Assembly: GCA_025449645.1 (NCBI GenBank)
Contig: JANWIY010000013.1
Location: 1-32,809 of the forward strand
From: Chitinophagaceae bacterium
Lineage (GTDB): Bacteria; Bacteroidota; Bacteroidia; Chitinophagales; Chitinophagaceae
Length of the DNA: 32,809 nucleotides
Reading direction: 5' to 3'
Shown here: piece by piece, positions 2,715 through 19,708 of the stretch
How positions within the stretch are numbered: position 1 is the stretch's first letter
Layout of the letters: the number at the start of each line of letters is the position of its first letter
Position numbers and translations under genes: made by a program
The notes under the pieces: model-generated
What the model saw: the letters and a program-made list of their open reading frames with translations, nothing else
Told to the model about the DNA's origin: nothing
Databases searched by the model: none

Positions 2715-3518
2715 ATGCTCAACAGATCTTTCTTTTTTATTATCCTGGTTCTTTTTAGTTGCCGTACCAATCCCTACAGGTCCACTAACAAAGATTATAG
2801 GAAAGAGGCAAAGCATCTCAGCAATATCCTGAGGGACCAGCCGCCAAATTATTTTCCCGGGCAACAAATGGAATGGGCGGGAACGGTAAACTTTGATCTG
2901 CGCCGGCCAAATTTTATCATTATCCATCATACGGCACAGGAGGGTTGTCCGCAAACGCTTAAAGCATTTACCACGACAAGCTCAAAAGTGAGCGCACACT
3001 ACGTGATTTGTAAAGACGGGACAGTGCATCATATGCTCAATGATTTATTGCGTGCATGGCAGGCTGGCGTAAGTAAATGGGGCAACAATACGGATATCAA
3101 TTCCTCCAGTATCGGCATCGAACTGGATAATAATGGCTTTGAAGATTTCAGCCTTCCACAAATCAACAGCCTGCTGATCCTGCTGGATACACTTAAAACA
3201 AAATATCATATTCCGGAGGCGAATATTATTGGTCATGGTGATATTGCGCCGGGAAGAAAAGTGGATCCGAACTGGCATTTTCCATGGAAATTATTGGCTG
3301 AACACGGGTTTGGGGAATGGTTTGATGATACAACCTATACCGTCGTTCCTACTGGATTCAATGAATACCAGGCATTGAGAATTATCGGCTACAACTTAAA
3401 AGATACTGTTGCGGTGATAAACGCCTTCCGCAGGCATTGGCTTCAGGATACGGTTTATCGTGCGCTGGACAGTTCCGATGATAAGATTCTCTACAATCTT
3501 TCACAGAAATATCAATAA
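2715..3518 (+). CDS. N-acetylmuramoyl-L-alanine amidase (Amidase_2/AmpD-like), predicted lipoprotein
   Basis: The 267-residue enzyme should cleave the bond between N-acetylmuramic acid and L-alanine in peptidoglycan or its fragments. A short hydrophobic leader ends in LFSC (Cys16), a lipoprotein-type signal, so it is probably anchored in the periplasm or outer membrane. The Amidase_2 fold covers about residues 55-195. Zinc ligands are H71 or H72 (in HHTAQEGC), H174 (GHGDIAPGRK) and D184, and the catalytic pair corresponds to E136 (GIELDNNG) and K182. The last 60 residues resemble a small helical, peptidoglycan-binding-like tail. It is followed by a strong bidirectional terminator. It might release anhydro-muropeptides for recycling, which fits the kinase/MurU pair further along, but that link is inference. 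Confidence 0.87.
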   Translation: MLNRSFFFIILVLFSCRTNPYRSTNKDYRKEAKHLSNILRDQPPNYFPGQQMEWAGTVNFDLRRPNFIIIHHTAQEGCPQTLKAFTTTSSKVSAHYVICKDGTVHHMLNDLLRAWQAGVSKWGNNTDINSSSIGIELDNNGFEDFSLPQINSLLILLDTLKTKYHIPEANIIGHGDIAPGRKVDPNWHFPWKLLAEHGFGEWFDDTTYTVVPTGFNEYQALRIIGYNLKDTVAVINAFRRHWLQDTVYRALDSSDDKILYNLSQKYQ

Positions 3519-4265: not shown

Positions 4266-6938
4266 ATGTCTTCACTTATGACCATTGAGCAGAAACGCCT
4301 TCTTTTAAATTCCTACAGAAAAATACCCCTGGAACAATGGGGACCTTACCTGAGCGAAAGGCAGTGGGGAACCGTGAGAGAGGATTATGGCCCCTACGGC
4401 GATGCATGGAATTATTTCCCTTACGATCATGCCCATTGCAGGCAGTATCAATGGGGGGAAGACGGATTGGCAGGCATCTCCGATTTTTTTCAAAACCTCT
4501 GCTTTGCTGTTGCCCTGTGGAACGGAAAGGATCCCATATTAAAGGAAAGATTATTCGGCCTTGGAAATACGCAGGGAAACCATGGTGAAGATGTAAAGGA
4601 ATTATATTATCATTTGGACAATATTCCTTCACATTATTATATGGAATATCTGTATAAGTACCCCCAGCAGGCATTTCCATATGAGAAACTGCGGAAAGAG
4701 AATGCGCTACTTTCAAAACAGGATCCTGAATATGAAATCCTGGACACCGGCATTTTCGACAATAATGAATATTTTGATGTGCTGGTGACTTATGCAAAAG
4801 TCAACTCAAAAGATATTTTTATCAGGATCGAGATCACCAACCGTTATCTGAAGGCGGCGGAGATCTCCGTTCTGCCCACCCTGTGGTTTTACAATAAGTG
4901 GAAGAATGATCCCGAACAAAAGCCGCGGATCAGCCAGCGAAATAAGAACTCGGTAAAGGCGGACCATAGCCGGCTGGGAAGTTATTATCTCTATTTTCAA
5001 ACTCCGAAAGATAAATGGTTCACTGAAAATGAAACCAACCAGGAAAAGATTTCGGGCGTTCCGAATGAAAGCATTTTTGTAAAGGATGCTTTTCATGACG
5101 CCCTGGTTCATGGGAAAAATGTGGAAGCCTTAAGAAAAATCAAAAAGGGAACTAAATTCTCTTCTGTTTATCAATTTACTATTGAAGGCGGCAAATCCCA
5201 GACGCTTTTTCTCCGCCTTTCAAATAAATCCATTGAGAATCCATTCACTTTTGGATTTGAGAAAATATTCGAACAGCGGAAAGAAGAAGCCAATGCTTTT
5301 TATGATGAGATCCTGGATCCCGGGAGCGTTGATCACCTGAAGGTGTTGCAGCGGCAAGCCCTTTCCGGATTGCTTTGGAGTAAACAGTATTATCATTTTG
5401 ATGTGGAGAAATGGCTTGGCGGTAGCGATGGGATCACACCGGTTAATGCAGGAAAGCTGGCCGGGAGGAATCATGACTGGAAGCATCTTAAAAACCAGGA
5501 TATCATTGCTATGCCCGATAAATGGGAGTACCCCTGGTATGCCGCCTGGGATATGGCATTTCAAAGTATTCCGATGTCCATGGTGGATCCCAGCTTCGCC
5601 AAGCATCAGTTGCTGCTCATTATGCGCGAATGGTACATGAAACCCGACGGACAGCTGCCTGCCTATGAATGGAATTTCAGTGACGTGAATCCACCGGTGC
5701 AGGCCTGGGCTGCGCTCCAGGTTTACAAGATAGAAAAAGAAAAAAGCGGACATGGCGACATTGATTTCCTGAAACGGATCTTTCAGAAATTACTGATCAA
5801 TTTTACATGGTGGGTAAACCGGAAAGATCCGAACGGCAACAATATGTTTGAAGGAGGATTCCTGGGCCTCGATAATATCGGCGTTTTTAACCGGAGTATT
5901 GAATTGCCAGGGCAAATGCAGCTGGAACAGGCCGACGGTACCAGCTGGATGGGCATGTATGCGCTGAACATGATGGACATGGCGCTGGAGATTGCGATGA
6001 AAGATGCGGCTTTTGAAGATACGGCCACCAAATTCTTTGAACAGTTCGTGTTAATTGCCGAAGCTTTGAATGAGCAGGGTATGTGGAATGAAGAAGATAA
6101 GTTTTTCTATGATACGCTGGCGATTGCCGGATCCGTGCCCTTGCAGCTTCGCATTCATTCAATCGTAGGCATCACGACACTTTTTGCGGTCTCCGTGATT
6201 GAAAAGAAAAAGCTGGATAAGCTCGCTGATTTCAAAAAACGGATCAGTTGGTTTGAAAACTACCGGTTGAAAAATAAAAAGTTCTGGCCAAATGAAGAAA
6301 AGACTGATGGGGAAACCATCCTGCTTTCGCTCGTTCCGCGCGGACGCCTAGTGAGTCTGCTCGAAAGATTACTCAATGAAGAAGAATTCCTTTCACCCGG
6401 CGGAATCCGTGCACTTTCCAAATACCATGAGAAAAATCCATATTCCGTAACCATCGATAATATCAATTATACTATTCAATATGATCCGGGTGATTCCACT
6501 TCCAGTCTTTTTGGCGGCAATTCAAACTGGCGCGGACCCATATGGATGCCCATTAATTATCTGATCATTCAGTCAATCCGGAAATATGGCATTTTTTATG
6601 GCAATGCCCTGAAAGTAGAGTGCCCTGTGGGTTCCGGCAATATGCTTAACCTGGAGGAGGTCGCGAATTTCCTCACCCGGCGTGTTATCAGTCTGTTTCA
6701 GCCGGACTTGTCCGGGGCCATTCCGCAATACGGCAAATACAACTGGTTTTATCAGCAGCCCGGAAATGAGCATCTCAATCTTTTTTATGAATACTTTCAC
6801 GGAGATAACGGCCAGGGTCTCGGCGCATGCCAGCAGACCGGCTGGACCGCCCTGCTTGCGGAACTGATCAATGAGCAGCAACAAAGAGCAGGGGAAAATA
6901 TTCCTGCGGAACCCCCCGAAATCACGGTGGTTAACTGA
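4266..6938 (+). CDS. GH63-like glucosidase (MGH1-type glycoside hydrolase)
   Basis: The 890-residue protein contains the long conserved opening seen in bacterial GH63 'glucosidase' proteins: WGPYLSERQWGTVREDY, YRWGEDGLAGISD-like (YQWGEDGLAGISDFFQNLC), LALWNG-like FAVALWNGKDP, LKERLFGLGNTQGNHGEDVK and LYKYPQQAFPY. The second half is the (alpha/alpha)6 barrel with HDWKHLKN, PDKWEYPWYAAWDMAFQ, LPAYEWNFSDVNPPV and SLFGGNSNWRGPIWMP. There is no signal peptide, so it should act in the cytoplasm on an alpha-glucoside or alpha-mannoside-type substrate that the sequence does not identify. The start at 4266 is an ATG, with a second ATG at 4278 equally possible. The kinase/RapZ-C gene follows after 25 bp on the same strand, so the two are probably co-transcribed. 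Confidence 0.85.
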   Translation: MSSLMTIEQKRLLLNSYRKIPLEQWGPYLSERQWGTVREDYGPYGDAWNYFPYDHAHCRQYQWGEDGLAGISDFFQNLCFAVALWNGKDPILKERLFGLGNTQGNHGEDVKELYYHLDNIPSHYYMEYLYKYPQQAFPYEKLRKENALLSKQDPEYEILDTGIFDNNEYFDVLVTYAKVNSKDIFIRIEITNRYLKAAEISVLPTLWFYNKWKNDPEQKPRISQRNKNSVKADHSRLGSYYLYFQTPKDKWFTENETNQEKISGVPNESIFVKDAFHDALVHGKNVEALRKIKKGTKFSSVYQFTIEGGKSQTLFLRLSNKSIENPFTFGFEKIFEQRKEEANAFYDEILDPGSVDHLKVLQRQALSGLLWSKQYYHFDVEKWLGGSDGITPVNAGKLAGRNHDWKHLKNQDIIAMPDKWEYPWYAAWDMAFQSIPMSMVDPSFAKHQLLLIMREWYMKPDGQLPAYEWNFSDVNPPVQAWAALQVYKIEKEKSGHGDIDFLKRIFQKLLINFTWWVNRKDPNGNNMFEGGFLGLDNIGVFNRSIELPGQMQLEQADGTSWMGMYALNMMDMALEIAMKDAAFEDTATKFFEQFVLIAEALNEQGMWNEEDKFFYDTLAIAGSVPLQLRIHSIVGITTLFAVSVIEKKKLDKLADFKKRISWFENYRLKNKKFWPNEEKTDGETILLSLVPRGRLVSLLERLLNEEEFLSPGGIRALSKYHEKNPYSVTIDNINYTIQYDPGDSTSSLFGGNSNWRGPIWMPINYLIIQSIRKYGIFYGNALKVECPVGSGNMLNLEEVANFLTRRVISLFQPDLSGAIPQYGKYNWFYQQPGNEHLNLFYEYFHGDNGQGLGACQQTGWTALLAELINEQQQRAGENIPAEPPEITVVN

Positions 6939-6963: not shown

Positions 6964-8415
6964 ATGGACAGCATTAACCATGATATAGCGGCCCTTTTTT
7001 CCGGTTACAGCAAAGAGCCTGTTGTTTCCGTCAAAAAGATTCCTCAGTCAGGAAGCATCCGGACCTACTACCGCATCCATACTTCAAAGCAAAGCTATAT
7101 CGCTACCTATGGCCTGAATATTAAAGAAAACCAAACATTTATCCTGTTCAGCCGCCATTTTAAGAGCAGGGAATGTCCGGTGCCGGATATTTATGCAGAG
7201 AATGAGGAATGCACACTGTATATCCAGCAGGATTTCGGAGATGTTTCGCTGTTAAACAAACTGGAAGAACAAGGCTTCACACCCTATATTTTCGATCTGT
7301 TCAAACAGAGCCTGAAGACACTGGCCCACCTGCAGATCCGGGGTGACGAAGGCCTTGACTATGAAAACTGGTGTCTCACTTCGAGCGAGTTCGGGAAGCA
7401 GGCCATTATGAGCGATCTGTTGTATTTCAAATATTATTTTCTCGACACACTTCAGCTTCCATATGATAAGGAAAAGCTCATTGCTGATTTTGAAGCATTC
7501 GCTTCTGATCTCAGTAGCGTTGATCATAAATACTTCATGTTCCGGGATTTTCAAAGCCGGAACATCATGATTGAAAACGAAAAAGTTCATTTTATCGATT
7601 ATCAGGGCGGCATGAAGGGCGCTCTTCAATATGATGTAGCGTCCATGCTTTGGCAGGCAAAGGCAGAACTTCCGGATGAATGGAAAAATGGGTTGCTTGA
7701 ATATTATATGGATTGCGTGGAAGAAATGCTGGCGGGGAAGATTGACCGGCATCGCTTTTTCAGGCAGTACCGCGGCTATGTGCTGATCCGGCTGATGCAG
7801 GTGCTGGGCGCCTACGGATTCCGCGGATTGTTTGAACGCAAGGCGCATTTTCTGATCAGCATTCCACTAGGGTTAAAGAATCTTCGGGATTTTTTGCAAA
7901 ATCATTTTTCAGGAAGGGATTTGCCGGAATATGAAAGAGTTCTTCATCTGATCGTGGAGGACCAGGTGATCCAGCGATTCGTACCGTTGAGGGCTGGTCC
8001 GGAGACTCCCCTGGTGGTTCATATCAACAGCTTTTCTTACAAGAGATCCATCCCCGAAGATGATGGAGGCAATGGTGGCGGATTTGTATTTGATTGCCGC
8101 GGAATTTTAAATCCCGGGCGCCAGGATGCATTCATGTCTAAAACAGGTAGAGATAAAGAAGTAAGGGAATTCCTGGAGCAGGAAACCAAAATGCCGGAAT
8201 ATCTCAACAGTGTATTTGATCTCGTGGATATTTCCGTGGAAGAATATATCAAGCGCGGATTCAAAAGCCTGATGGTGAGTTTCGGCTGCACCGGCGGCCA
8301 GCACCGGAGTGTATATGCTGCAGATGCGCTGGCAAGACATCTTAAGAATAAATTCGGAGTGCAGATAGAGCTCAAACACGTGGAGCAGGATCTGAAGGGA
8401 TGGCTGAATGCGTGA
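6964..8415 (+). CDS. AmgK-like sugar kinase fused to a RapZ C-terminal domain
   Basis: The 483-residue chain has two domains. Residues about 1-310 form an aminoglycoside-phosphotransferase-type kinase resembling AmgK, the anomeric MurNAc/GlcNAc kinase. It has a catalytic loop FRDFQSRN (D195, N200), a metal-binding IDYQGG (D212), and the AmgK-like GALQYDVASMLWQAKAE segment. Residues about 350-476 match the RapZ C-terminal domain: INSFSYKRSIPEDD, FVFDCRGILNPG, KTGRDKEVREFLE and GCTGGQHRSV (441-450). In E. coli that domain binds glucosamine-6-phosphate. The RapZ P-loop domain is absent, and so is the basic RNA-binding tail. The gene follows the glucosidase by 25 bp and meets the MurU-like gene tail to tail with 21 bp between. 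The domains are secure; the AmgK specificity and the sensing role are inferred. Confidence 0.85.
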   Translation: MDSINHDIAALFSGYSKEPVVSVKKIPQSGSIRTYYRIHTSKQSYIATYGLNIKENQTFILFSRHFKSRECPVPDIYAENEECTLYIQQDFGDVSLLNKLEEQGFTPYIFDLFKQSLKTLAHLQIRGDEGLDYENWCLTSSEFGKQAIMSDLLYFKYYFLDTLQLPYDKEKLIADFEAFASDLSSVDHKYFMFRDFQSRNIMIENEKVHFIDYQGGMKGALQYDVASMLWQAKAELPDEWKNGLLEYYMDCVEEMLAGKIDRHRFFRQYRGYVLIRLMQVLGAYGFRGLFERKAHFLISIPLGLKNLRDFLQNHFSGRDLPEYERVLHLIVEDQVIQRFVPLRAGPETPLVVHINSFSYKRSIPEDDGGNGGGFVFDCRGILNPGRQDAFMSKTGRDKEVREFLEQETKMPEYLNSVFDLVDISVEEYIKRGFKSLMVSFGCTGGQHRSVYAADALARHLKNKFGVQIELKHVEQDLKGWLNA

Positions 8416-8436
8416 AAATTTTTGCTGACGCTACCA

Positions 8437-9150
8437 CTAATTAAACAATGCTTCTGCCAACGCTATGGCTTCCGTTTTGCCCACGTCGATGAATTTTGAT
8501 CCGGAATGGTCAAATCCTTTGATGATGCGGGATGCGGCAAGCTGAAGGTAAACTTCGACAATTGAAAATTTTCCTTCATGCAGCATTAGCGGAAAAATCC
8601 CGGGCGAAATGATATGTATTCCACTAAATGCCTTTTCAGAGGGCGTGGAACTAGGGGGAAAAGCCAGCCGTTTCTCGTTCGTTTTTGTATTACGCCAACC
8701 GCATAACCGGTCTTCATCAAAAAGAAAATACCGGGATGATTTCCTTTTTGCCACAGCAAGCGTCACCAGCGGTGCATTTTTGTTGTGAAAAGATATCAGG
8801 GTACTAAGGTTCAGGTCGGTCAGGATATCGGCATTCATCACAACAAAGGGCGCACCGGTAAAAAACCAGGATGCTTTTTTTATTCCGCCACCGGTCTCAA
8901 GCACTGCATCCCTCTCATCGCTGATGGTAATTTTACTTCCCCATCCGTCGTTCGTTTCTATCGCTTCAATGATCTGATCAGCGAAGTGATGTACATTCAC
9001 CATCACTTCTGAAATTCCGAAAGATTGGAGGTAGAGCAGGTTCCTCTCTAAAAGGCTCTTTCCATTCACCTCCGCAAGTGCCTTGGGATGTTTTTCCGTC
9101 CATGGCTTAAACCTGGTGCCCAGTCCCGCAGCGAGGATCATTGCTTTCAT
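8437..9150 (-). CDS. murU: MurU-like sugar-1-phosphate nucleotidyltransferase
   Basis: This is a 237-residue nucleotidyltransferase of the short single-domain type. The start is placed at the ATG at 9150, where the family begins (MKAMILAAGLGTRFKPWT). The longer frame to 9240 adds 30 residues that run into nadB and resemble nothing. Motifs follow MurU (MurNAc-1-phosphate uridylyltransferase): nucleotide loop LAAGLGTR, KHPKAL, LETGGGIKKA, APFVVMNADI, FSGIHIISP, FSIVEVYLQ and FIDVGK. There is no C-terminal left-handed beta-helix, unlike GlmU or glucose-1-phosphate thymidylyltransferases. With AmgK-type kinases MurU makes UDP-MurNAc without passing through MurNAc-6-phosphate. It lies downstream of nadB on the same strand and is convergent with the kinase gene. 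Mannose-1-phosphate guanylyltransferase-like activity is the main alternative. Confidence 0.78.
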   Translation of the reverse strand: MKAMILAAGLGTRFKPWTEKHPKALAEVNGKSLLERNLLYLQSFGISEVMVNVHHFADQIIEAIETNDGWGSKITISDERDAVLETGGGIKKASWFFTGAPFVVMNADILTDLNLSTLISFHNKNAPLVTLAVAKRKSSRYFLFDEDRLCGWRNTKTNEKRLAFPPSSTPSEKAFSGIHIISPGIFPLMLHEGKFSIVEVYLQLAASRIIKGFDHSGSKFIDVGKTEAIALAEALFN

Positions 9151-9229
9151 AAGCGAAACATATTTATACCAAAATGATTCCGGGCATTTTGATTGTGCAA
9201 ATAAATTTCCCCGTATATTCCTATCATGA

Positions 9230-10831
9230 TCAGAGAACAATATTTTGTATCAGCCTGCTCTTTTTTGGATAGTCAGTATTATAGTGCAGGCCGCGGCTCT
9301 CTTTCCGGAACTGCGCTCCTTTTACAATAAGGTAGCCGGTGGTGATCAGGTTCCTTACCTCACATAATTGTGGAGATACGTCCGTGGTTTCATAAAGGGC
9401 CTCTATTTCTTCATGGAGCAGATCCAGGCGTTTCATTGCTCTTTCAAGACGGATATTGGTCCGCACGATACCCACATAATCACTCATGAGCAACTGAAGT
9501 TCCTTGATGCTTTGCGTGATCAGGATCATTTCGTGGGGAGCCGTGGTGCCTTCCGCATTCCAATCCGGAATATTCTCGTTGAAAGAAATTCCTTTTATTT
9601 TTTTAGTGCTGTCCTGGTAACACCGGTGAGCGAACACAAGCCCTTCCAGAAGAGAATTGCTGGCCAGGCGGTTTGCGCCGTGAAGTCCGGTGGAAGCACA
9701 TTCTCCGCAGGCATACAAATGCCTGATGGAAGTACAGCCCCATTCGTCTGTTTTAATTCCGCCGCAGCTGTAGTGGGCTGCGGGGGCAACAGGAATCATT
9801 TGTTTGATTATATCAATGCCGATGGATTTGCATTTTTCATATATATTCGGGAAGTGCTCCTTGAATTTTTCGATATCCATGTGCCGGCAGTCCAGGTAAA
9901 CATGCTCGGTACCCGCTTTTTTCATCTCGCTGTCGATGGCCCTGGCGACAATGTCCCGCGGTGCAAGGTCCCGGCGCCCGTCGTATTTAATCATGAAGGC
10001 TTCTTCGTTTTTATTCCGGAGAATTCCACCGTCTCCGCGAACCGCCTCGGTAATAAGGAAGGACGGGCTTACGCCCTGCTGATACAATGCAGTGGGATGA
10101 AACTGGATAAACTCCATATTCTCGATCCTTCCTTTTGCGCGGTAGACCATCGCTATCCCATCCCCGGTAGCGATCACAGGATTCGTTGTAGTGCGATAAA
10201 CCTGCCCATTCCCTCCAGTGGCAAAAACAGTGACGCGCGATAAGATTTTGACAATATGATTAGCCATGAGGTCAAGGGCATAAACGCCGAAGCATTCAAT
10301 ATCCGGAGTTGACTTTGTTACGAGGTACCCCAGATGATGCTGGGTAAGGATGTCAACCACAAAACAGTGCTTGATGATCTCGATATTTTTCTCTGAAGCA
10401 ACCGTACTCAGCAGCGCACGTTCCATTTCCATGCCTGTGACATCCTTATGGTGTAAGATCCGGAATTCTGAATGCCCGCCTTCTTTTCCGCGTTTAAATT
10501 CACCTTCTTCGTCTTTATCAAATTCTGTTCCCCATTCAATCATTTCCTTAATCCGTTCAGGACCTTCCTTCACAACCATGTCTACGATTTTCGGATTGCA
10601 GAGTCCGTCACCTGCAACCAGGGTGTCTTCGATATGCTTTTCGTAACTGTCGTGTTCCAGATCCGTCACCCCGGCAATGCCGCCCTGTGCGTACTTGGTA
10701 TTGGTTTCATCGGCAATGGTTTTGGTGATCACGAGTACATGCTGATCCGGACAGGCTCTTGCAACCTTCAACGCATAAGTTAATCCGGCAATTCCGGAAC
10801 CAACTACCAGGAAGTCCGTTTTTTTAATCAT
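9230..10831 (-). CDS. nadB: L-aspartate oxidase
   Basis: The 533-residue flavoprotein oxidises L-aspartate to iminoaspartate, the first step of de novo NAD synthesis. The FAD-binding GxGxxG motif is at residues 11-16 (VVGSGIAGL), followed by the TNTKYAQGGIAGV segment, HHKDVTGMEMERAL, EFIQFHPTALY, ITEAVRGDGGILRN, LAPRDIVARAID and the active-site HYSCGGI region, then YACGECASTGLHGANRLASN. These together distinguish NadB from succinate dehydrogenase flavoprotein. Length is typical (about 530). The ATG at 10831 begins MIKKTDFLVVGSG. It follows the lipoprotein gene with a 15-bp gap and precedes the MurU-like gene, so lipoprotein-nadB-murU may be one transcript. nadA and nadC are not in the window. 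Confidence 0.95.
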   Translation of the reverse strand: MIKKTDFLVVGSGIAGLTYALKVARACPDQHVLVITKTIADETNTKYAQGGIAGVTDLEHDSYEKHIEDTLVAGDGLCNPKIVDMVVKEGPERIKEMIEWGTEFDKDEEGEFKRGKEGGHSEFRILHHKDVTGMEMERALLSTVASEKNIEIIKHCFVVDILTQHHLGYLVTKSTPDIECFGVYALDLMANHIVKILSRVTVFATGGNGQVYRTTTNPVIATGDGIAMVYRAKGRIENMEFIQFHPTALYQQGVSPSFLITEAVRGDGGILRNKNEEAFMIKYDGRRDLAPRDIVARAIDSEMKKAGTEHVYLDCRHMDIEKFKEHFPNIYEKCKSIGIDIIKQMIPVAPAAHYSCGGIKTDEWGCTSIRHLYACGECASTGLHGANRLASNSLLEGLVFAHRCYQDSTKKIKGISFNENIPDWNAEGTTAPHEMILITQSIKELQLLMSDYVGIVRTNIRLERAMKRLDLLHEEIEALYETTDVSPQLCEVRNLITTGYLIVKGAQFRKESRGLHYNTDYPKKSRLIQNIVL

Positions 10832-10846
10832 AACTGCAATTCGATC

Positions 10847-11629
10847 CTAGTAAACAATTGTGTATTCAAATTTTTCAGGATGTTGAAACACTTCAGCGAG
10901 GTTGTATTGGATCACGACCTGCTTTTTATCAGGAGATAATTTGGCCAGGATATTATCCACTTTCTTTACCGGCCGCGGCAGGTTAATCGTCAGCGTATAA
11001 GGAATTGAAATGCCCATATTGCCGAGGTCTTTCATTTGACTGAACTGCGGGTTCTGCTGAAGGGCCTTCCACTTCTGGTCATCCAGTTTCCGCGAAATTA
11101 ATCCGTTACGGCTCTTGAAATCATAAATGGCATTAAACTGATTCATGTCAGGCATATTATTACTGTTATCGCCTTGCATTCCCGAAGAATCCGATTTCCC
11201 GGTCATCCCCTTGAAAAGTTGAGTGAAGCCAAGCGACTGGTTATTCATCGAATTATACAATTTCTGAAGATTTTCCTGACTGCTGAAAGGGATGTGAATA
11301 TTGCTCTTAAAAATCTTTTGCTCCATATTCAGTTTCACTTGCACAGTACCGTCTTTCACGAGTTCCTTATTTTCAGGGCTTAAGTCCTTGGAAGTGTCCG
11401 TCAGGCTTTTCATCATAACTGTGGTATCAACATTTCCTGCGGGCATTTGCTTTGCCATTTCTTCCTTGCCCAGGTAACTTTCCATGCCATTCAGCAGTTG
11501 GCTCATGTCTGTTGAAATAGACAGGTCTCCCTTTCCATCCGCGCCGATGTTGATTTGTTCCTGAATTTCAAAACAGCCTGCCAGGGATAGAACAAGCAAG
11601 CCGCAGAATAAATACTTGAGACGCTTCAT
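10847..11629 (-). CDS. Predicted lipoprotein of unknown function
   Basis: The 260-residue protein has a clear lipoprotein signal: MKRLKY, a hydrophobic stretch, and LAGC with Cys19 as the acylated residue. The mature part starts FEIQEQINIGADGKGDLSIS. It has a low-complexity central part rich in Asn, Met, Ser and Gly (GKSDSSGMQGDNSNNMPDMN), and ends with beta-strand-like segments (TLTINLPRPVKKV, KQVVIQYNL, FEYTIVY). The alternating pattern suggests a periplasmic beta-rich domain. No family is recognised from sequence. It is 15 bp upstream of nadB on the same strand and 56 bp downstream of galM, but no functional link to NAD synthesis is evident. Confidence 0.75.
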   Translation of the reverse strand: MKRLKYLFCGLLVLSLAGCFEIQEQINIGADGKGDLSISTDMSQLLNGMESYLGKEEMAKQMPAGNVDTTVMMKSLTDTSKDLSPENKELVKDGTVQVKLNMEQKIFKSNIHIPFSSQENLQKLYNSMNNQSLGFTQLFKGMTGKSDSSGMQGDNSNNMPDMNQFNAIYDFKSRNGLISRKLDDQKWKALQQNPQFSQMKDLGNMGISIPYTLTINLPRPVKKVDNILAKLSPDKKQVVIQYNLAEVFQHPEKFEYTIVY

Positions 11630-13812: not shown

Positions 13813-15081
13813 TCAGAATACCTCTCCAAGATTTACAAAGAATCCCCTGGATCCATCTATTCCCACCCCGTAATCAATGGCGATATTGGTATCGGAATGC
13901 TTGTTCACCTTGATCCGCAATCCGGCTCCTGCGGCGGGCCAGAGCTTGGTGAACTGATTCGATGGATAATCGGAAAAGCTTTGGACGTTCGCAAAAGCAA
14001 CACCTCCGAAAAGTCCGTTTCTGCTGATCACAAACCGGTATTCTGATTCCAGATAAAGCATATTTTTCGAGCGGAACCTGCCCTGAATATATCCTCTTCC
14101 GGTATTGTTATAGGTATCCCAACCCGTTGAAGGCAGATCCAGGTAAGGTGGTTTCCCTGAAGGGGTGAGCCAGTCATAACTCCAGAATGCGAGGATATTC
14201 CTATAATCGGGCGTAAGGAGAAAATACTTTCTCAGATCGATCGTAAGGGATTGCCAGTTGGAATCACTTCCCAGGGATTTCAGATTGTCACGGTATAGTA
14301 TATTCGCATAAAGACCACCTTTCGGATTGATCGAATTTTTCCTGTTGTCAAACAATAAATTTAAAACAGGTCCGGAAGAAATTGTTTTCGGTGCCAGCCC
14401 GTAAAGGAATGCGTCTGATGGCTCTCCATTGGGTTGCCCGCTTTCTTTCACATTCCAATGATAGTCGAGGAAATATCCTGCTCCGGCATAAAAATTTTTC
14501 ATTACTTTTTTTAGTACTGCCTGATGGATACGGAATTGGGAATAGTCAAGTTCATCGTCATTTTCCAAGGAACTGTGACCGCCGAGCCCATACGTATCCT
14601 GCGGATATTTGTAATAGCGCCAGTCTGCAATAATATTATATTCATTGTCAGTGGTCCACCAGTTCACCAGTATCGGAATGGTGAGCTGCTGATATTGAGA
14701 ATAAACAAGCTGGACTGCAATATTGGACACATTGGTCCTCTCCGGATCTTTGGCTATAAAAGCCACATTGGAGGCGAGAATGCCGGCCAGCCCGGTGCTG
14801 AGTGTGTATCCGATAGCGGGAACAAATGAAAAATGATATTTAACCGGATTCATATTCCCGGCAACAACAGTATCCTTCTTTTTTTTTGTGATCGAATAGT
14901 AAACGTCAGTCAGATCTTTTTGAGGATAGACCGGACGCATGCCAGAGTCTGAAAAGATTATGCTGCGGCCGGGGACGACCCAGATGCTGTCTGTTTGGGC
15001 AGACAGTTCCGTGGACGCGAGGATGAACCCGGTAAGGCATGAAATAATTAAGATCCGGCAACTTCGCCTGGTTCGATCCAC
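13813..15081 (-). CDS. Omp85-type outer-membrane barrel protein (BamA/TamA-like, no POTRA seen)
   Basis: The 422-residue protein has a signal peptide (positively charged MDRTRRSCR, then a hydrophobic run ending about ELSAQ at residue 29). After roughly 60 linker residues comes a beta-barrel of alternating strands. Recognisable Omp85 'surface antigen' barrel features are SGPVLNLLFDNRKNSINPKGGLY, the GRGYIQGRFRSKNMLYLESEYRF segment equivalent to the VRGF loop, and the closing DGSRGFFVNLGEVF with a terminal aromatic. No POTRA repeats fit in the short N-terminus, so it is unlikely to be the core BamA and is better seen as a small Omp85-like porin or secretion barrel. Its start lies 34 bp inside the 3' end of ispG, which indicates co-transcription. 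Confidence 0.8.
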   Translation of the reverse strand: MDRTRRSCRILIISCLTGFILASTELSAQTDSIWVVPGRSIIFSDSGMRPVYPQKDLTDVYYSITKKKKDTVVAGNMNPVKYHFSFVPAIGYTLSTGLAGILASNVAFIAKDPERTNVSNIAVQLVYSQYQQLTIPILVNWWTTDNEYNIIADWRYYKYPQDTYGLGGHSSLENDDELDYSQFRIHQAVLKKVMKNFYAGAGYFLDYHWNVKESGQPNGEPSDAFLYGLAPKTISSGPVLNLLFDNRKNSINPKGGLYANILYRDNLKSLGSDSNWQSLTIDLRKYFLLTPDYRNILAFWSYDWLTPSGKPPYLDLPSTGWDTYNNTGRGYIQGRFRSKNMLYLESEYRFVISRNGLFGGVAFANVQSFSDYPSNQFTKLWPAAGAGLRIKVNKHSDTNIAIDYGVGIDGSRGFFVNLGEVF

Positions 15082-17060
15082 TCGTTGTTTTCTTTTAACA
15101 AATTGATTAATTCATCTACGGCTGTTTCGCTATTCACCCCACGCTTCACCACTTCTTTCCCTTTGTACAAGGTGATCTTTCCGGTTCCGCTGCCTACGTA
15201 TCCGAAATCTGCATCGGCCATTTCCCCGGGCCCGTTAACAATGCAACCCATCACGGCAATCTTTAAGCCTTTAAGATGGCTGGTGATTGAGCGAATTTTT
15301 GCGGTGGTTTCCTGAAGGTCAAAAAGTGTTCTTCCGCAGGAAGGGCAGGAAATGTATTCTGTTTTAGAGATCCTGGTCCTTGCAGCCTGAAGAATGGAAA
15401 ATGCGGTGTTGTTCAGAAATTGCTGATTATTCCCGGATTGGAGATAGGTCCTTCCGGTTACCTGCCGGTTTACGATCTTTTCCGGATCATTCTTTAAAAA
15501 GAGACCGTCTCCCATCCCGTCGGTTAGCAAGGCGCCGGATTCAATGGCAAAATGAATCAGCTGTTTGTCGATGCTGGTTTCGAAACATTGAATGGCCAGG
15601 ATCACCGGGAACTGGATATTCCGGTTCATCATTTCCACTATGAATCTCCTGGTATCCTGCAAGGGATTCCGGGTTGATGAATATACGCAAAGAACGACTC
15701 CCGGGATGCCTTTGACCTCTGAAAGCAAAGTCAGACTTTCCGCCTTGCTGGTATCCAGCATGAGGAAATTTATTGAGCCAGAATATTGTTCTGCTGCAAC
15801 TATCTCTGGTCCGGCAAACAGGGGAAAATATTTCTCTTCTCCCGTGTTGAATTTTTGTGTTTCCGGCTTTTTCCAGCAGGCAAAATCACAAATTACCTTG
15901 AGTGTTCCCGGCAAAGCAAAATCAGGAACACGGTCTCCTGTATACAAATAATCTGCCGCAGCGTCGCCGATATTCCATTTACCAGCTCCGGGCTCATACT
16001 GATACCCGATGCTCTGCAGGGATTCTTTTGTGAGCGTCTTCGTTTGTGAGAAATCGGCCACTACGACCGGCGGGTGCGGGATCCCGATATTATTCTGATG
16101 AATTGTCGTTCTCCTTTTGTATTCGAATGGCGAATAAGGAATTTTTGCAAGCGGCGGAATGGACCTGTCTGCTTTCCTTGAAGCATACCGCGCCACAATG
16201 TCCTGGCAGACCGGAATTTCAAATTCCGGATCTTCAGTCAGGGAAACACGTATCGTATCGCCGATACCGTCTTCCAGCAAAGTGCCGATCCCGATGGCAG
16301 ATTTAATCCTTCCGTCTTCTCCATCCCCGGCTTCTGTAACGCCGATATGTAAGGGATAGAGCAGCCCGAATTCATCCTGCATATTGCGGACGAGCAACCT
16401 GTAAGCCTGCACCATGACCAACGGATTGCTTGATTTCATACTGAGTACAATACTATGATAGCTTTCACTCCGCGCAATACGGAGGAACTCCATGGCACTT
16501 TCCACCATGCCCATCGGCGAGTCGCCATACCGGCTCATGATCCTGTCGCTTAATGAACCATGGTTGGTCCCAATGCGCATCGCGGTTCCATATTCCTTGC
16601 AAATACGGATCAGCGGCACAAACCGGTCCCGGATTCGCCCGATCTCCGCGGTATATTCCTGATCGCTGTATTCAATGAACTGAAACTTTTTTTTGTCGAC
16701 GTAATTGCCCGGATTCACTCTTACTTTTTCTACTATGCGTGCGGCAATCTCTGCGGCGTTTGGTGTAAAATGAATATCCGCAACAAGAGGCGTATGGTAT
16801 CCTCTTTTTCTGATTTCGTTTTTAATATTCAGCAGGTTTTCCGCTTCTGTTTTGCTGGGCGCGGTAATGCGGATAAGCTCGGCTCCCGCTTCAATGCAGC
16901 GGATGGACTGCTCCACAGTCGCCCTGGTATCCATGGTGTCCGGCGTGGTCATGGTCTGGACCCGGATCGGCGCATCGCCTCCGATAATCAGGTCGCCCAC
17001 CTTTACGGGCAGGGTTTTGAGCCGTTCAAATTGTGTAAGCGAAGTGGTGTATAATTGCAT
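15048..17060 (-). CDS. ispG: 4-hydroxy-3-methylbut-2-en-1-yl diphosphate synthase, long three-domain form
   Basis: IspG (GcpE) converts MEcPP to HMBPP in the MEP isoprenoid pathway using a [4Fe-4S] cluster. The N-terminal TIM barrel is marked by GGDAPIRVQTMTTPDTMDT, VADIHFTPNAA and VRVNPGNYVDKKKF. The C-terminal domain carries cluster ligands C572, C575 (SCPSCGRTLF), C606 and E613 (MGCIVNGPGEM). At 670 residues it is much longer than the E. coli enzyme (372). The extra 250-odd residues lie between the two domains, as in Bacteroidota, Chlamydia and plant IspG. The ATG at 17060 is chosen over a TTG at 17084, because a -7 box lies between 17082 and 17089. The Omp85-type gene overlaps the 3' end. 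Confidence 0.95.
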   Translation of the reverse strand: MQLYTTSLTQFERLKTLPVKVGDLIIGGDAPIRVQTMTTPDTMDTRATVEQSIRCIEAGAELIRITAPSKTEAENLLNIKNEIRKRGYHTPLVADIHFTPNAAEIAARIVEKVRVNPGNYVDKKKFQFIEYSDQEYTAEIGRIRDRFVPLIRICKEYGTAMRIGTNHGSLSDRIMSRYGDSPMGMVESAMEFLRIARSESYHSIVLSMKSSNPLVMVQAYRLLVRNMQDEFGLLYPLHIGVTEAGDGEDGRIKSAIGIGTLLEDGIGDTIRVSLTEDPEFEIPVCQDIVARYASRKADRSIPPLAKIPYSPFEYKRRTTIHQNNIGIPHPPVVVADFSQTKTLTKESLQSIGYQYEPGAGKWNIGDAAADYLYTGDRVPDFALPGTLKVICDFACWKKPETQKFNTGEEKYFPLFAGPEIVAAEQYSGSINFLMLDTSKAESLTLLSEVKGIPGVVLCVYSSTRNPLQDTRRFIVEMMNRNIQFPVILAIQCFETSIDKQLIHFAIESGALLTDGMGDGLFLKNDPEKIVNRQVTGRTYLQSGNNQQFLNNTAFSILQAARTRISKTEYISCPSCGRTLFDLQETTAKIRSITSHLKGLKIAVMGCIVNGPGEMADADFGYVGSGTGKITLYKGKEVVKRGVNSETAVDELINLLKENNEWIEPGEVAGS

Positions 17061-17081
17061 GGGGATCCAGGATAATATTGG

Positions 17082-17113
17082 CAAAATTAACGATTCGGAC
17101 CGGTGCCTACCAA
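17082..17113 (-). promoter_or_regulatory. Promoter for ispG (-33/-7)
   Basis: On the minus strand TTG (17113-17111) is followed after 21 bases by TAATTTTG (17089-17082), an exact TAnnTTTG. The start ATG at 17060 is 21 bases beyond the box. The -33 element lies in the last codons of batC, so ispG probably has its own promoter as well as read-through from the bat genes. Confidence 0.6.
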
Positions 17114-18898: not shown

Positions 18899-19708
18899 TT
18901 ATTTCTTTCCGTTAAAAAATCCAAAATGAGAAAGGATTTCTTTAAGGAGTTTAAGTCGCACGGTTTTCATGTCCATATTATTATCAGCAGATTCCAGGTT
19001 AAGCACAAAGAAATAGGGATGCTTATTTTCTTCGATCCAGCCTACTATCCAGCCTATCTCGTCGCCGTTTTCCCTGGTTCCGAGGCCGGTCTTATAGCTT
19101 AGTTTGTAATTCGAATTTTGTTCCCGCAACATGACTTGTTTCACCATCTCCTGGGTACGGTGGAAGAAAGGCAACTGGTCAAAATATAATTTCTTTACCA
19201 GTCCCAGTTCTTCATCAGGTTTCACTTTAAGGGTATTGTTCAGCCAGAAAGAATCGATGGGACCGCTGATGTCCCGGTTTCCATATCCGAGAGAGTCGAT
19301 CCAGTGTTTCATCGCGTCGTGGCCGATCCGTCTGGCCACTTCCTGATAATAAGGGACTGCGGAAACGGCAAAAGCTTCTTTCATACTAAGGTCCTTGTTC
19401 CAATCCGCGTTTGGCCGCACAACAGCATCCCATTTAATGACCATATTTTCATCGCTGATCTTTCCGGTCTGAATCCCGATCAGCGAGTTCACGATCTTAA
19501 AAGTGGACGCAGGTGTATAGGAACTATCCCGGTAGCGTGACAAATTATAAATGGTAAAATCATTCTGTCCGTTGTTGAACAAGGCAAAGCAACCGGTGAC
19601 CCCATTGGAATCGAAATAGGTCCCAAGGCTTTCGTCTTCTTTCACATTATTACTTGTGCAAGCCAGGAGAAAGAGAAGGGAGAGGGTTGAAATGTGGAAC
19701 CGGCGCAA
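18899..19708 (-). CDS. Class D beta-lactamase, predicted lipoprotein
   Basis: The 269-residue serine beta-lactamase has every class D motif in order: S68-T-F-K71 (PASTFKI), S116-A-V118, Y142-G-N144, W155, and K206-T-G208 (YKTGLG). K71 is the residue that is carboxylated in OXA enzymes. The N-terminus is MRRFHIS, a hydrophobic stretch and LLAC, so Cys17 is a lipobox Cys and the enzyme is probably membrane-anchored. No in-frame ATG exists near the signal; the start is a TTG at 19708, supported by a -7 box 14-21 bases upstream. Substrate range cannot be read from the sequence. The neighbours (bat genes, a small membrane protein) and normal base composition suggest a resident chromosomal gene. 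Confidence 0.88.
   Translation of the reverse strand: MRRFHISTLSLLFLLACTSNNVKEDESLGTYFDSNGVTGCFALFNNGQNDFTIYNLSRYRDSSYTPASTFKIVNSLIGIQTGKISDENMVIKWDAVVRPNADWNKDLSMKEAFAVSAVPYYQEVARRIGHDAMKHWIDSLGYGNRDISGPIDSFWLNNTLKVKPDEELGLVKKLYFDQLPFFHRTQEMVKQVMLREQNSNYKLSYKTGLGTRENGDEIGWIVGWIEENKHPYFFVLNLESADNNMDMKTVRLKLLKEILSHFGFFNGKK

Follow-up and report, generated by a model that had tools for sequence, protein, structure and literature searches.

A RapZ C-terminal domain fused to an AmgK-like kinase in Bacteroidota: a candidate N-acetylmuramic acid 6-phosphate phosphatase of cell wall recycling

Introduction

AnmK makes N-acetylmuramic acid 6-phosphate (MurNAc-6P) from anhydro-N-acetylmuramic acid (anhydroMurNAc), and the anabolic route of cell wall recycling bypasses the step that is blocked by fosfomycin. 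To our knowledge, the MurNAc-6P phosphatase of this route is known solely as MupP of Pseudomonas and its relatives. The Pseudomonas route consists of AnmK, MupP, AmgK and MurU, with MurQ absent, and its MupP is a HAD phosphatase acting on MurNAc-6P (PMC5371407). Here we consider a gene of the Bacteroidota in which an AmgK-like kinase is joined to the C-terminal domain of RapZ (RapZ-C). It lies at 6964..8415 on the forward strand of a 32,809-nucleotide stretch from a Chitinophagaceae bacterium (assembly GCA_025449645.1, contig JANWIY010000013.1), the whole of which is called the window below. We propose that RapZ-C would serve as a MurNAc-6P phosphatase, an analogue of MupP, within a two-step recycling enzyme; judged from the domain architecture, the link to kinase and murU, the conserved loop and the co-occurrence with enzymes that make MurNAc-6P, we put the probability of this reading at about 0.45.

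Tannerella forsythia has an AmpG-MurK recycling cluster as well as an AmgK/MurU route; MurK together with MurQ forms a catabolic branch there, and deletion of murK directs N-acetylmuramic acid (MurNAc) to wall synthesis (PMC7670621). The C-terminal domain of Escherichia coli RapZ (RapZ-CTD) is a dimer whose pocket holds sulphate and malonate (PMC5737377); it binds glucosamine-6-phosphate (GlcN6P) (PMC7073468), and the same pocket contacts GlmZ RNA (PMC9841335). H190 is essential in this protein, the C247A and C247S variants are both inactive and a catalytic -SH has been suggested, and the density in crystals with GlcN6P was read as a product that has probably undergone chemical change (PMC9841335). 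For the E. coli protein it has already been published that the RapZ loop resembles that of cysteine phosphatases, together with the suggestion of GlcN6P hydrolysis (PMC7199280); new here are MurNAc-6P as the proposed substrate, the pathway role and the ancestry. For YvcJ, the RapZ homologue of Bacillus subtilis, NTPase and phosphatase activities have been stated (PMC7525490). A RapZ-AmgK fusion was named nowhere in the literature searched, which leaves most subscription journals outside its coverage; one article mentions both RapZ and 'peptidoglycan recycling' (PMC4908143), and the available parts of two others mention neither a RapZ phosphatase nor AmgK (PMC13232886, PMC10216114).

The fusion gene and its two domains

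The gene starts with ATG and encodes 483 residues, an AmgK-like APH kinase (about 1-340) followed by RapZ-C (351-474). The motifs FRDFQSRN, IDYQGG, FVFDCRG, TGRD and GCTGGQHRSV all fall in its single frame, where Pfam finds both PF01636 and PF22740, and the first-pass annotation, made from the sequence alone, was thus right to see one chain with both domains. The AlphaFold2 model of the whole protein is confident (mean predicted local distance difference test score (pLDDT) 89.4, predicted template modelling score 0.74, 14 sequences).

The kinase part occupies 6964..7980 (forward strand, residues 1-339). Its APH match (PF01636, residues 31-248) scores 31.3 bits against a cut-off of 23.2, and its best profile is AmgK NF045759 over residues 58-308, with E 8.1e-13 and 48.2 bits against an equivalog cut-off of 550; NF045698 gives 31.2 bits against 500. 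Scoring far below the equivalog cut-off, the domain is called AmgK-like and is not filed as AmgK, and the best NCBIfam matches of the fusion as a whole, AmgK for the N-terminal and RapZ for the C-terminal part, are all under their equivalog cut-offs. D195, N200 and D212, given catalytic or metal-binding roles by analogy with the APH fold, are invariant in 30/30 sequences. The structure closest to the modelled kinase half is 3csv (Z 29.6, root-mean-square deviation (rmsd) 2.9 over 308 residues); the N-acetylhexosamine 1-phosphate kinase 4ocv reaches Z 20.5 (rmsd 4.1 over 288), a level at which many choline kinases also score.

RapZ-C (8014..8385, forward strand) matches PF22740 with 111.1 bits (cut-off 27, E 4.9e-32) and reaches a pLDDT of 91.5 when modelled alone. 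Its model superposes on the E. coli RapZ-CTD 5o5s with Z 19.8 and rmsd 1.6 over 123 residues at 31% identity, and after RapZ its structure matches drop to Z 6.8 or less, with phosphofructokinases and a designed P-loop protein. Among the structure matches listed no PTP-fold relative stood out, one DUSP10 chain appearing at a Foldseek E of 3.4.

As the first-pass annotation had noticed, a kinase replaces the P-loop domain of RapZ: PF03668 is found neither in the fusion protein nor in the window genome (~86% complete). The protein ends in HVEQDLKGWLNA, shortly past RapZ-C, and the basic RNA-binding tail is missing, again as had been described. RNA binding as in E. coli, with the fusion as a moonlighting regulator, could draw on the contact between the RapZ pocket and GlmZ RNA (PMC9841335), and is the least probable of the explanations considered, close to negligible, given the loss of a tail that is itself restricted to Enterobacteriaceae (PMC7073468) and a window with no Rfam match at the gathering threshold.

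The pocket and the cysteine loop

The pocket of E. coli RapZ is formed by H190, T248, G249, H252 and R253, with C247 close by (PMC5737377, PMC9841335). In alignment with the fusion these correspond to G385, T443, G444, H447, R448 and C442, so that five of the six positions, the cysteine among them, are kept and H190 is replaced by Gly385. Of 395 sampled phylum genomes (given as G numbers, and their families as tool-coded f numbers), 49 carry RapZ-C. Across one stretch each from 46 of these 49, found without sequence patterns, C442, T443, G444, G445, H447, R448, S449, D377, R379, G385 and H472 are invariant, and D366, D397 and Q446 are each kept in 45/46. The pocket loop to which the first-pass annotation pointed is retained, and the histidine of the E. 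coli pocket is not, position 385 being Gly in all 46.

Cysteine-based phosphatases (PTP, LMW-PTP, ArsC) carry a CxxGxxR(S/T) loop between a strand and a helix. The phosphate-binding-type loop GCTGGQHRSV of the fusion (8284..8313, forward strand, codons of G441-V450) has the form C-x-x-G-x-x-R-S in 46/46 sequences, and in the AlphaFold2 model it sits between strand 435-442 and helix 448-464. HpaP is also said to have phosphatase activity, going by the title of its paper. A set of 80 named loci, part of a larger 150-locus set, was fetched with patterns including GCTGGQH and GGGFVFD, and is no independent test of conservation because these patterns contain the loop.

The first-pass annotation had taken RapZ-C for a sensor through which an amino-sugar phosphate tunes the kinase. 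A non-catalytic allosteric sensor of GlcN6P, N-acetylglucosamine 6-phosphate (GlcNAc-6P) or MurNAc-6P, switching the kinase and perhaps MurU, stays the main rival to a phosphatase, if an unlikely one. GlcN6P binding by the E. coli domain (PMC7073468), a fold very close to RapZ-CTD, the retention of four of the five pocket residues plus the cysteine, and a constant link to the kinase and to murU all speak for a sensor. Against it, H190, essential in E. coli (PMC9841335), is Gly here, which also makes GlcN6P less safe as the ligand, and the cysteine would have no clear role.

The link to murU and the spread of the fusion

A MurU-like nucleotidyltransferase gene lies tail to tail with the fusion gene at 8437..9150 on the reverse strand. 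The mechanical open reading frame extends over 8437-9240 from a TTG, and the ATG at 9150 (MKAMILAAGLG), giving 237 residues, is likely the true start; it coincides with the end coordinate of the first-pass annotation, whose 21 bp between the convergent stop codons (8416-8436) is likewise correct. The two best families of this neighbour are MurU NF045761 (E 1.2e-36, 126.7 bits, below its cut-off of 250) and NF045697 (118.8 bits, below its cut-off of 370).

The whole fusion protein finds matches in 135/395 genomes. All 49 RapZ-C genomes are among these 135, and RapZ-C was never seen in the sample without the kinase. By frame length, RapZ-C is fused in 37 of the 49 genomes and occupies a short frame of its own in 12; the kinase gene is directly adjacent to the separate rapZ-C in eight of the 12 (G012, G031, G095, G210, G265, G277, G281, G308) and elsewhere in four (G180, G271, G306, G331). 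A MurU-like match at E < 1e-30 is present in 49/49 RapZ-C genomes (in G306 it contains one stop codon) and in 0/7 no-kinase genomes tested, and among seven kinase-only genomes tested E is 2.2e-41 in G009, about 1e-22 in five of family f18 and 2e-6 in one. The best MurU match lies within 2 kb of RapZ-C in 39/49 genomes, co-directional in 38 and convergent in one, the window. These associations support the view, already taken at first pass, that the kinase is probably an AmgK-type recycling kinase linked to MurU.

Named genomes hold at least 589 related stretches. Among the best 80 of these, informative titles point mainly to Chitinophagaceae, Saprospiraceae, Bacteroidales and Ignavibacteria, and among the closer relatives of the window fusion are Ferruginibacter and other Chitinophagaceae. 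MurU is downstream and co-directional in 48 of these 80 loci, differently arranged in one, and missing from 31, among them some that break off near the fusion; it is present in 24/30 loci with 1.5 kb flanks. Eight of the 80 were dropped from a count of neighbours (kinase open reading frame not recovered), and in the remaining 72 MurU alone recurs widely, in 39/72. With 37/395 genomes carrying the fusion and at least 589 related stretches in named genomes, the fusion forms a widely distributed family, of which the window holds an ordinary representative. The first-pass remark that no characterised example was known thus holds for the literature searched, and the fusion itself is common, not rare; the contrary picture that it had raised, of a fusion never near murU and with an unconserved pocket, was not borne out.

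The order kinase, rapZ-C, murU as three separate genes was read in detail in five genomes and is seen by coordinates in G210 and G308. In G331 a rapZ-C-murU pair stands with the kinase elsewhere, and RapZ-C can therefore act as a protein of its own; G009 has kinase and murU side by side without rapZ-C. The dimeric state of RapZ-CTD in E. coli (PMC5737377) would suit a role in dimerisation, or as a scaffold joining the kinase to MurU, an explanation we regard as very improbable: it has no need of a conserved CX5R loop, and it would not lead one to expect a separate rapZ-C gene beside a major facilitator superfamily (MFS) transporter gene, far from kinase and murU.

That pair, a stand-alone RapZ-C gene followed by an MFS gene on the same strand, was observed in two genomes of one genus (L145:12630-14441, L147:2776-4493). 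The MFS gene (G306, G271) was considered as AmpG and rejected, with a best blastp E of 0.084 against E. coli AmpG; it has no NCBIfam match, and neither genome has a match to the AmpG permease family TIGR00901.

Co-occurrence with AnmK and MurQ

AnmK was found in 272/395 genomes and MurQ, counted at E up to 1e-30, in 279/395. AnmK without MurQ occurs in 16 genomes, 15 of which carry both the kinase and RapZ-C; these 15 represent six of the seven families involved (f1, f4, f16, f34, f41, f47), and the remaining genome, G381 of f25, has neither kinase nor RapZ-C. AnmK and MurQ occur together in 256 genomes, 17 of them with RapZ-C. The kinase stands without RapZ-C in 85 genomes (G009 and 84 members of family f18), which have neither AnmK nor MurQ at the cut-offs used, and where AnmK and the kinase are both present RapZ-C is there in 32/32. 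This last count sets aside a spurious entry in the kinase tally, G328, which is a weak 97-residue stretch (E 6.2e-4) and not a kinase match. Fisher tests on these tables give 5e-15 and 2e-17, values that ignore kinship and follow groups and cut-offs chosen with the data already seen, and so are descriptive. AnmK is present in 32/49 RapZ-C genomes, including that of the window (E 2.1e-63).

Since AnmK makes MurNAc-6-phosphate, AnmK-positive, MurQ-negative genomes need a MurNAc-6P phosphatase if an AmgK-MurU route is to operate. A sensor leaves this step empty in them, unless it is filled by a HAD phosphatase (for which no search was made), and a sensor of GlcN6P fails to explain the kinase-only genomes without AnmK and MurQ. 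The results appear to speak more for a third, catalytic step than for a sensor alone, because RapZ-C goes with MurNAc-6P metabolism, occurs as its own gene beside murU and carries a loop of a kind that could handle phosphate. Specific support for the sensor of the first-pass annotation did not emerge; catalysis is the better fit to the separate genes, to the CX5R(S) loop and to the way in which AnmK, MurQ and MurK/NagK-type kinases are distributed.

In the proposed route, either AnmK, acting on anhydroMurNAc, or a MurK-type kinase would supply MurNAc-6P. RapZ-C, as a cysteine-dependent phosphatase, would convert MurNAc-6P to MurNAc: C442 of loop 442-448 would be the nucleophile, the phosphate would be bound by R448 and by the amides of the loop, and either D377 or D397 would act as acid/base. 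The AmgK-like N-terminal domain would then phosphorylate MurNAc at C1 and the neighbouring MurU would form UDP-MurNAc, the whole amounting to an anabolic, fosfomycin-bypass recycling route in which RapZ-C may fill the place of the unrelated HAD phosphatase MupP of Pseudomonas.

Weighing a phosphatase role

A number of observations, gathered here, weigh against RapZ-C as a MurNAc-6P phosphatase, and several concern the domain itself. Among the matches listed, its nearest folds outside RapZ are phosphofructokinases (Z about 6.5) and no known cysteine phosphatase; the exchange of H190 for Gly may alter the ligand; one of the pattern-fetched loci has His at R448 and one has Tyr at G385, the remainder agreeing; and the available part of the article on YvcJ does not say which domain carries its phosphatase activity (PMC7525490). 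The co-occurrence has weak places as well. The window genome itself has MurQ (E 1.3e-87), which is absent in 28/49 RapZ-C genomes, and in G216, one of the 32 AnmK-positive genomes, AnmK is only a fragment of 80 residues where a contig ends. The kinases of f18 match distantly, at roughly 21-30% identity, and with 84/85 genomes in one family the kinase-only group amounts to two lineages. A HAD-type MupP, which was not searched for, could be present in the AnmK-positive, MurQ-negative genomes.

A further objection is that 17/49 RapZ-C genomes are without AnmK. In a search for BadF-type kinases (PF01869) that covered 46 genomes, 13 of these 17 proved to have a single-domain BadF-type kinase of 296-331 residues at E 7.7e-24 or better; of 16 AnmK-positive RapZ-C genomes tested, G132 reaches that level, with G180 at 1.8e-20 and G271 and G013 near 1e-18. 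The comparison of AnmK-negative with AnmK-positive genomes gives a Fisher value of 6e-5, 4e-4 or 5e-3 depending on the cut taken, with kinship ignored and cut-offs set post hoc. A MurK/NagK-type BadF kinase was found in 0/13 kinase-only genomes tested; strong BadF matches in G024, G048 and G098 of that group were set aside as acyl-CoA dehydratase activases (one match each checked). By coordinates, an AmpG-like gene lies within 3 kb of the BadF kinase in 13/13, none over the AmpG family cut-off, and a GH3-type cluster gene is present in 5/10 fetched BadF/AmpG-like loci (Pfam was run on two of the five). One of the BadF kinases has an N-acetylmuramic acid/N-acetylglucosamine kinase as its best PDB match (E 4.6e-40); three that were tested match the NCBIfam NagK profile best, under its cut-off, and BadF kinases may act on N-acetylglucosamine (GlcNAc). 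Moreover, MurK alone is no sign of an anabolic route, because the MurK/MurQ branch of T. forsythia is catabolic (PMC7670621).

The four AnmK-negative genomes that remain differ among themselves. G230 encodes, adjoining MurQ, a protein related to 8ow9, the 'putative novel MurNAc kinase' (E 6.5e-117), and G394 a kinase related to the 8ow9 chain (E 2.6e-72), to which a protein of unknown function is closer. G347 has MurQ only, its BadF match being a type II pantothenate kinase. In G351 enzymes making or using MurNAc-6P (AnmK, MurQ, BadF-type kinases) were looked for and none was found.

The possible action of BadF kinases on GlcNAc bears on another explanation, in which RapZ-C is an enzyme acting on a different sugar phosphate (e.g. 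GlcNAc-6P or GlcN6P), or by other chemistry, that feeds or protects the kinase. BadF kinases may supply GlcNAc-6P, the AmgK family is named for MurNAc/GlcNAc kinase activity, and GlcN6P hydrolysis (PMC7199280) and a transformed product (PMC9841335) have been suggested for RapZ itself. The AnmK/MurQ pattern points instead to MurNAc-6P, and we hold this alternative to be improbable.

Entry of the substrate does not fit the phosphatase proposal well. TIGR00901, searched at E up to 1e-15, matches nothing in the window genome; among 32 RapZ-C genomes tested 19 have a match, none over the family cut-off, and these comprise 17/17 AnmK-negative vs 2/15 AnmK-positive genomes. An AmpG-family match is thus missing in 13/15 of the AnmK-positive genomes tested, and the proposal does not account for how anhydromuropeptides would get into the cells that carry the argument. 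The pattern as such, AmpG with AnmK-negative and rarely with AnmK-positive RapZ-C genomes, looks as if there were two sets of import and kinase. The published loop likeness (PMC7199280) counts for the phosphatase and the AmpG result against it, and we take the two to offset each other.

If RapZ-C is the phosphatase, a widespread gene of the Bacteroidota that profiles call 'RapZ' gains a concrete reaction, and the role of the conserved pocket and essential cysteine of RapZ reduces to a short enzyme assay. If it is a sensor instead, the fusion offers a direct handle on the balance between wall recycling and synthesis. More tentatively than for the fusion itself, we can imagine that RapZ-C domains act on sugar 6-phosphates as cysteine-dependent phosphatases, with a fold outside the known cysteine-phosphatase folds, serving as MurNAc-6P phosphatase in Bacteroidota and relatives, fused to or beside AmgK and MurU, and that E. 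coli RapZ is a descendant turned RNA adapter. Such a descent would explain both the inactivity of C247S and the apparently changed GlcN6P in the pocket.

Neighbouring genes

In the 72 named loci processed for neighbours, two other genes were seen upstream and co-directional with the fusion (in L110, L100 and similar loci), each named by eye from its first residues: a SixA-type-like histidine phosphatase gene in 9/72 and a UDP-diacylglucosamine hydrolase-like gene in 8/72. Within the window, a GH63/MGH1-like glycoside hydrolase gene (4266-6938, forward strand, 890 residues) ends 25 bp upstream of the fusion gene on the same strand, and the two are possibly co-transcribed. Another recycling-type gene near the fusion, at 2715-3518 on the forward strand, encodes an AmpD-like N-acetylmuramoyl-L-alanine amidase (PF01510, E 3.6e-29; NF008758, 93 of 143 bits).

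The other genes recorded are on the reverse strand. A protein of 269 residues with a transpeptidase domain (18899-19708; PF00905, E 2.2e-30) is short for a penicillin-binding protein and could be beta-lactamase-like. GcpE (IspG) is encoded at 15048-17084 with 678 residues in two matched stretches, possibly as a long form with an insert. The reading frames 13816-15081 (422 residues) and 10847-11629 (260 residues) have no Pfam match, and the latter has no NCBIfam match either.

Comparison with known systems

Among described systems, that of Tannerella forsythia shares with the fusion its phylum and an AmgK/MurU route, next to an AmpG-MurK cluster; the available part of its article mentions no RapZ-C, and MurK is catabolic there (PMC7670621). 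AmgK of Pseudomonas has the APH fold, the best profile match and the link to MurU in common with the kinase half, which differs in scoring 48 of 550 bits and in its added RapZ domain. RapZ of E. coli and YvcJ of B. subtilis share the C-terminal domain and its cysteine loop, whereas the fusion has a kinase in place of the P-loop domain, no basic tail, Gly for H190 and Gln for K251, and a five-residue Gly-rich insertion before FVFD. The cysteine-based phosphatases resemble RapZ-C in their CX5R(S/T) loop between strand and helix and differ from it in fold, that of RapZ-C being closest to RapZ and then to phosphofructokinase. MupP of Pseudomonas would be its counterpart in the proposed reaction and in its place in the route (PMC5371407), whereas the fusion would carry out that step with an unrelated CX5R cysteine-loop domain, joined to the kinase that follows it.

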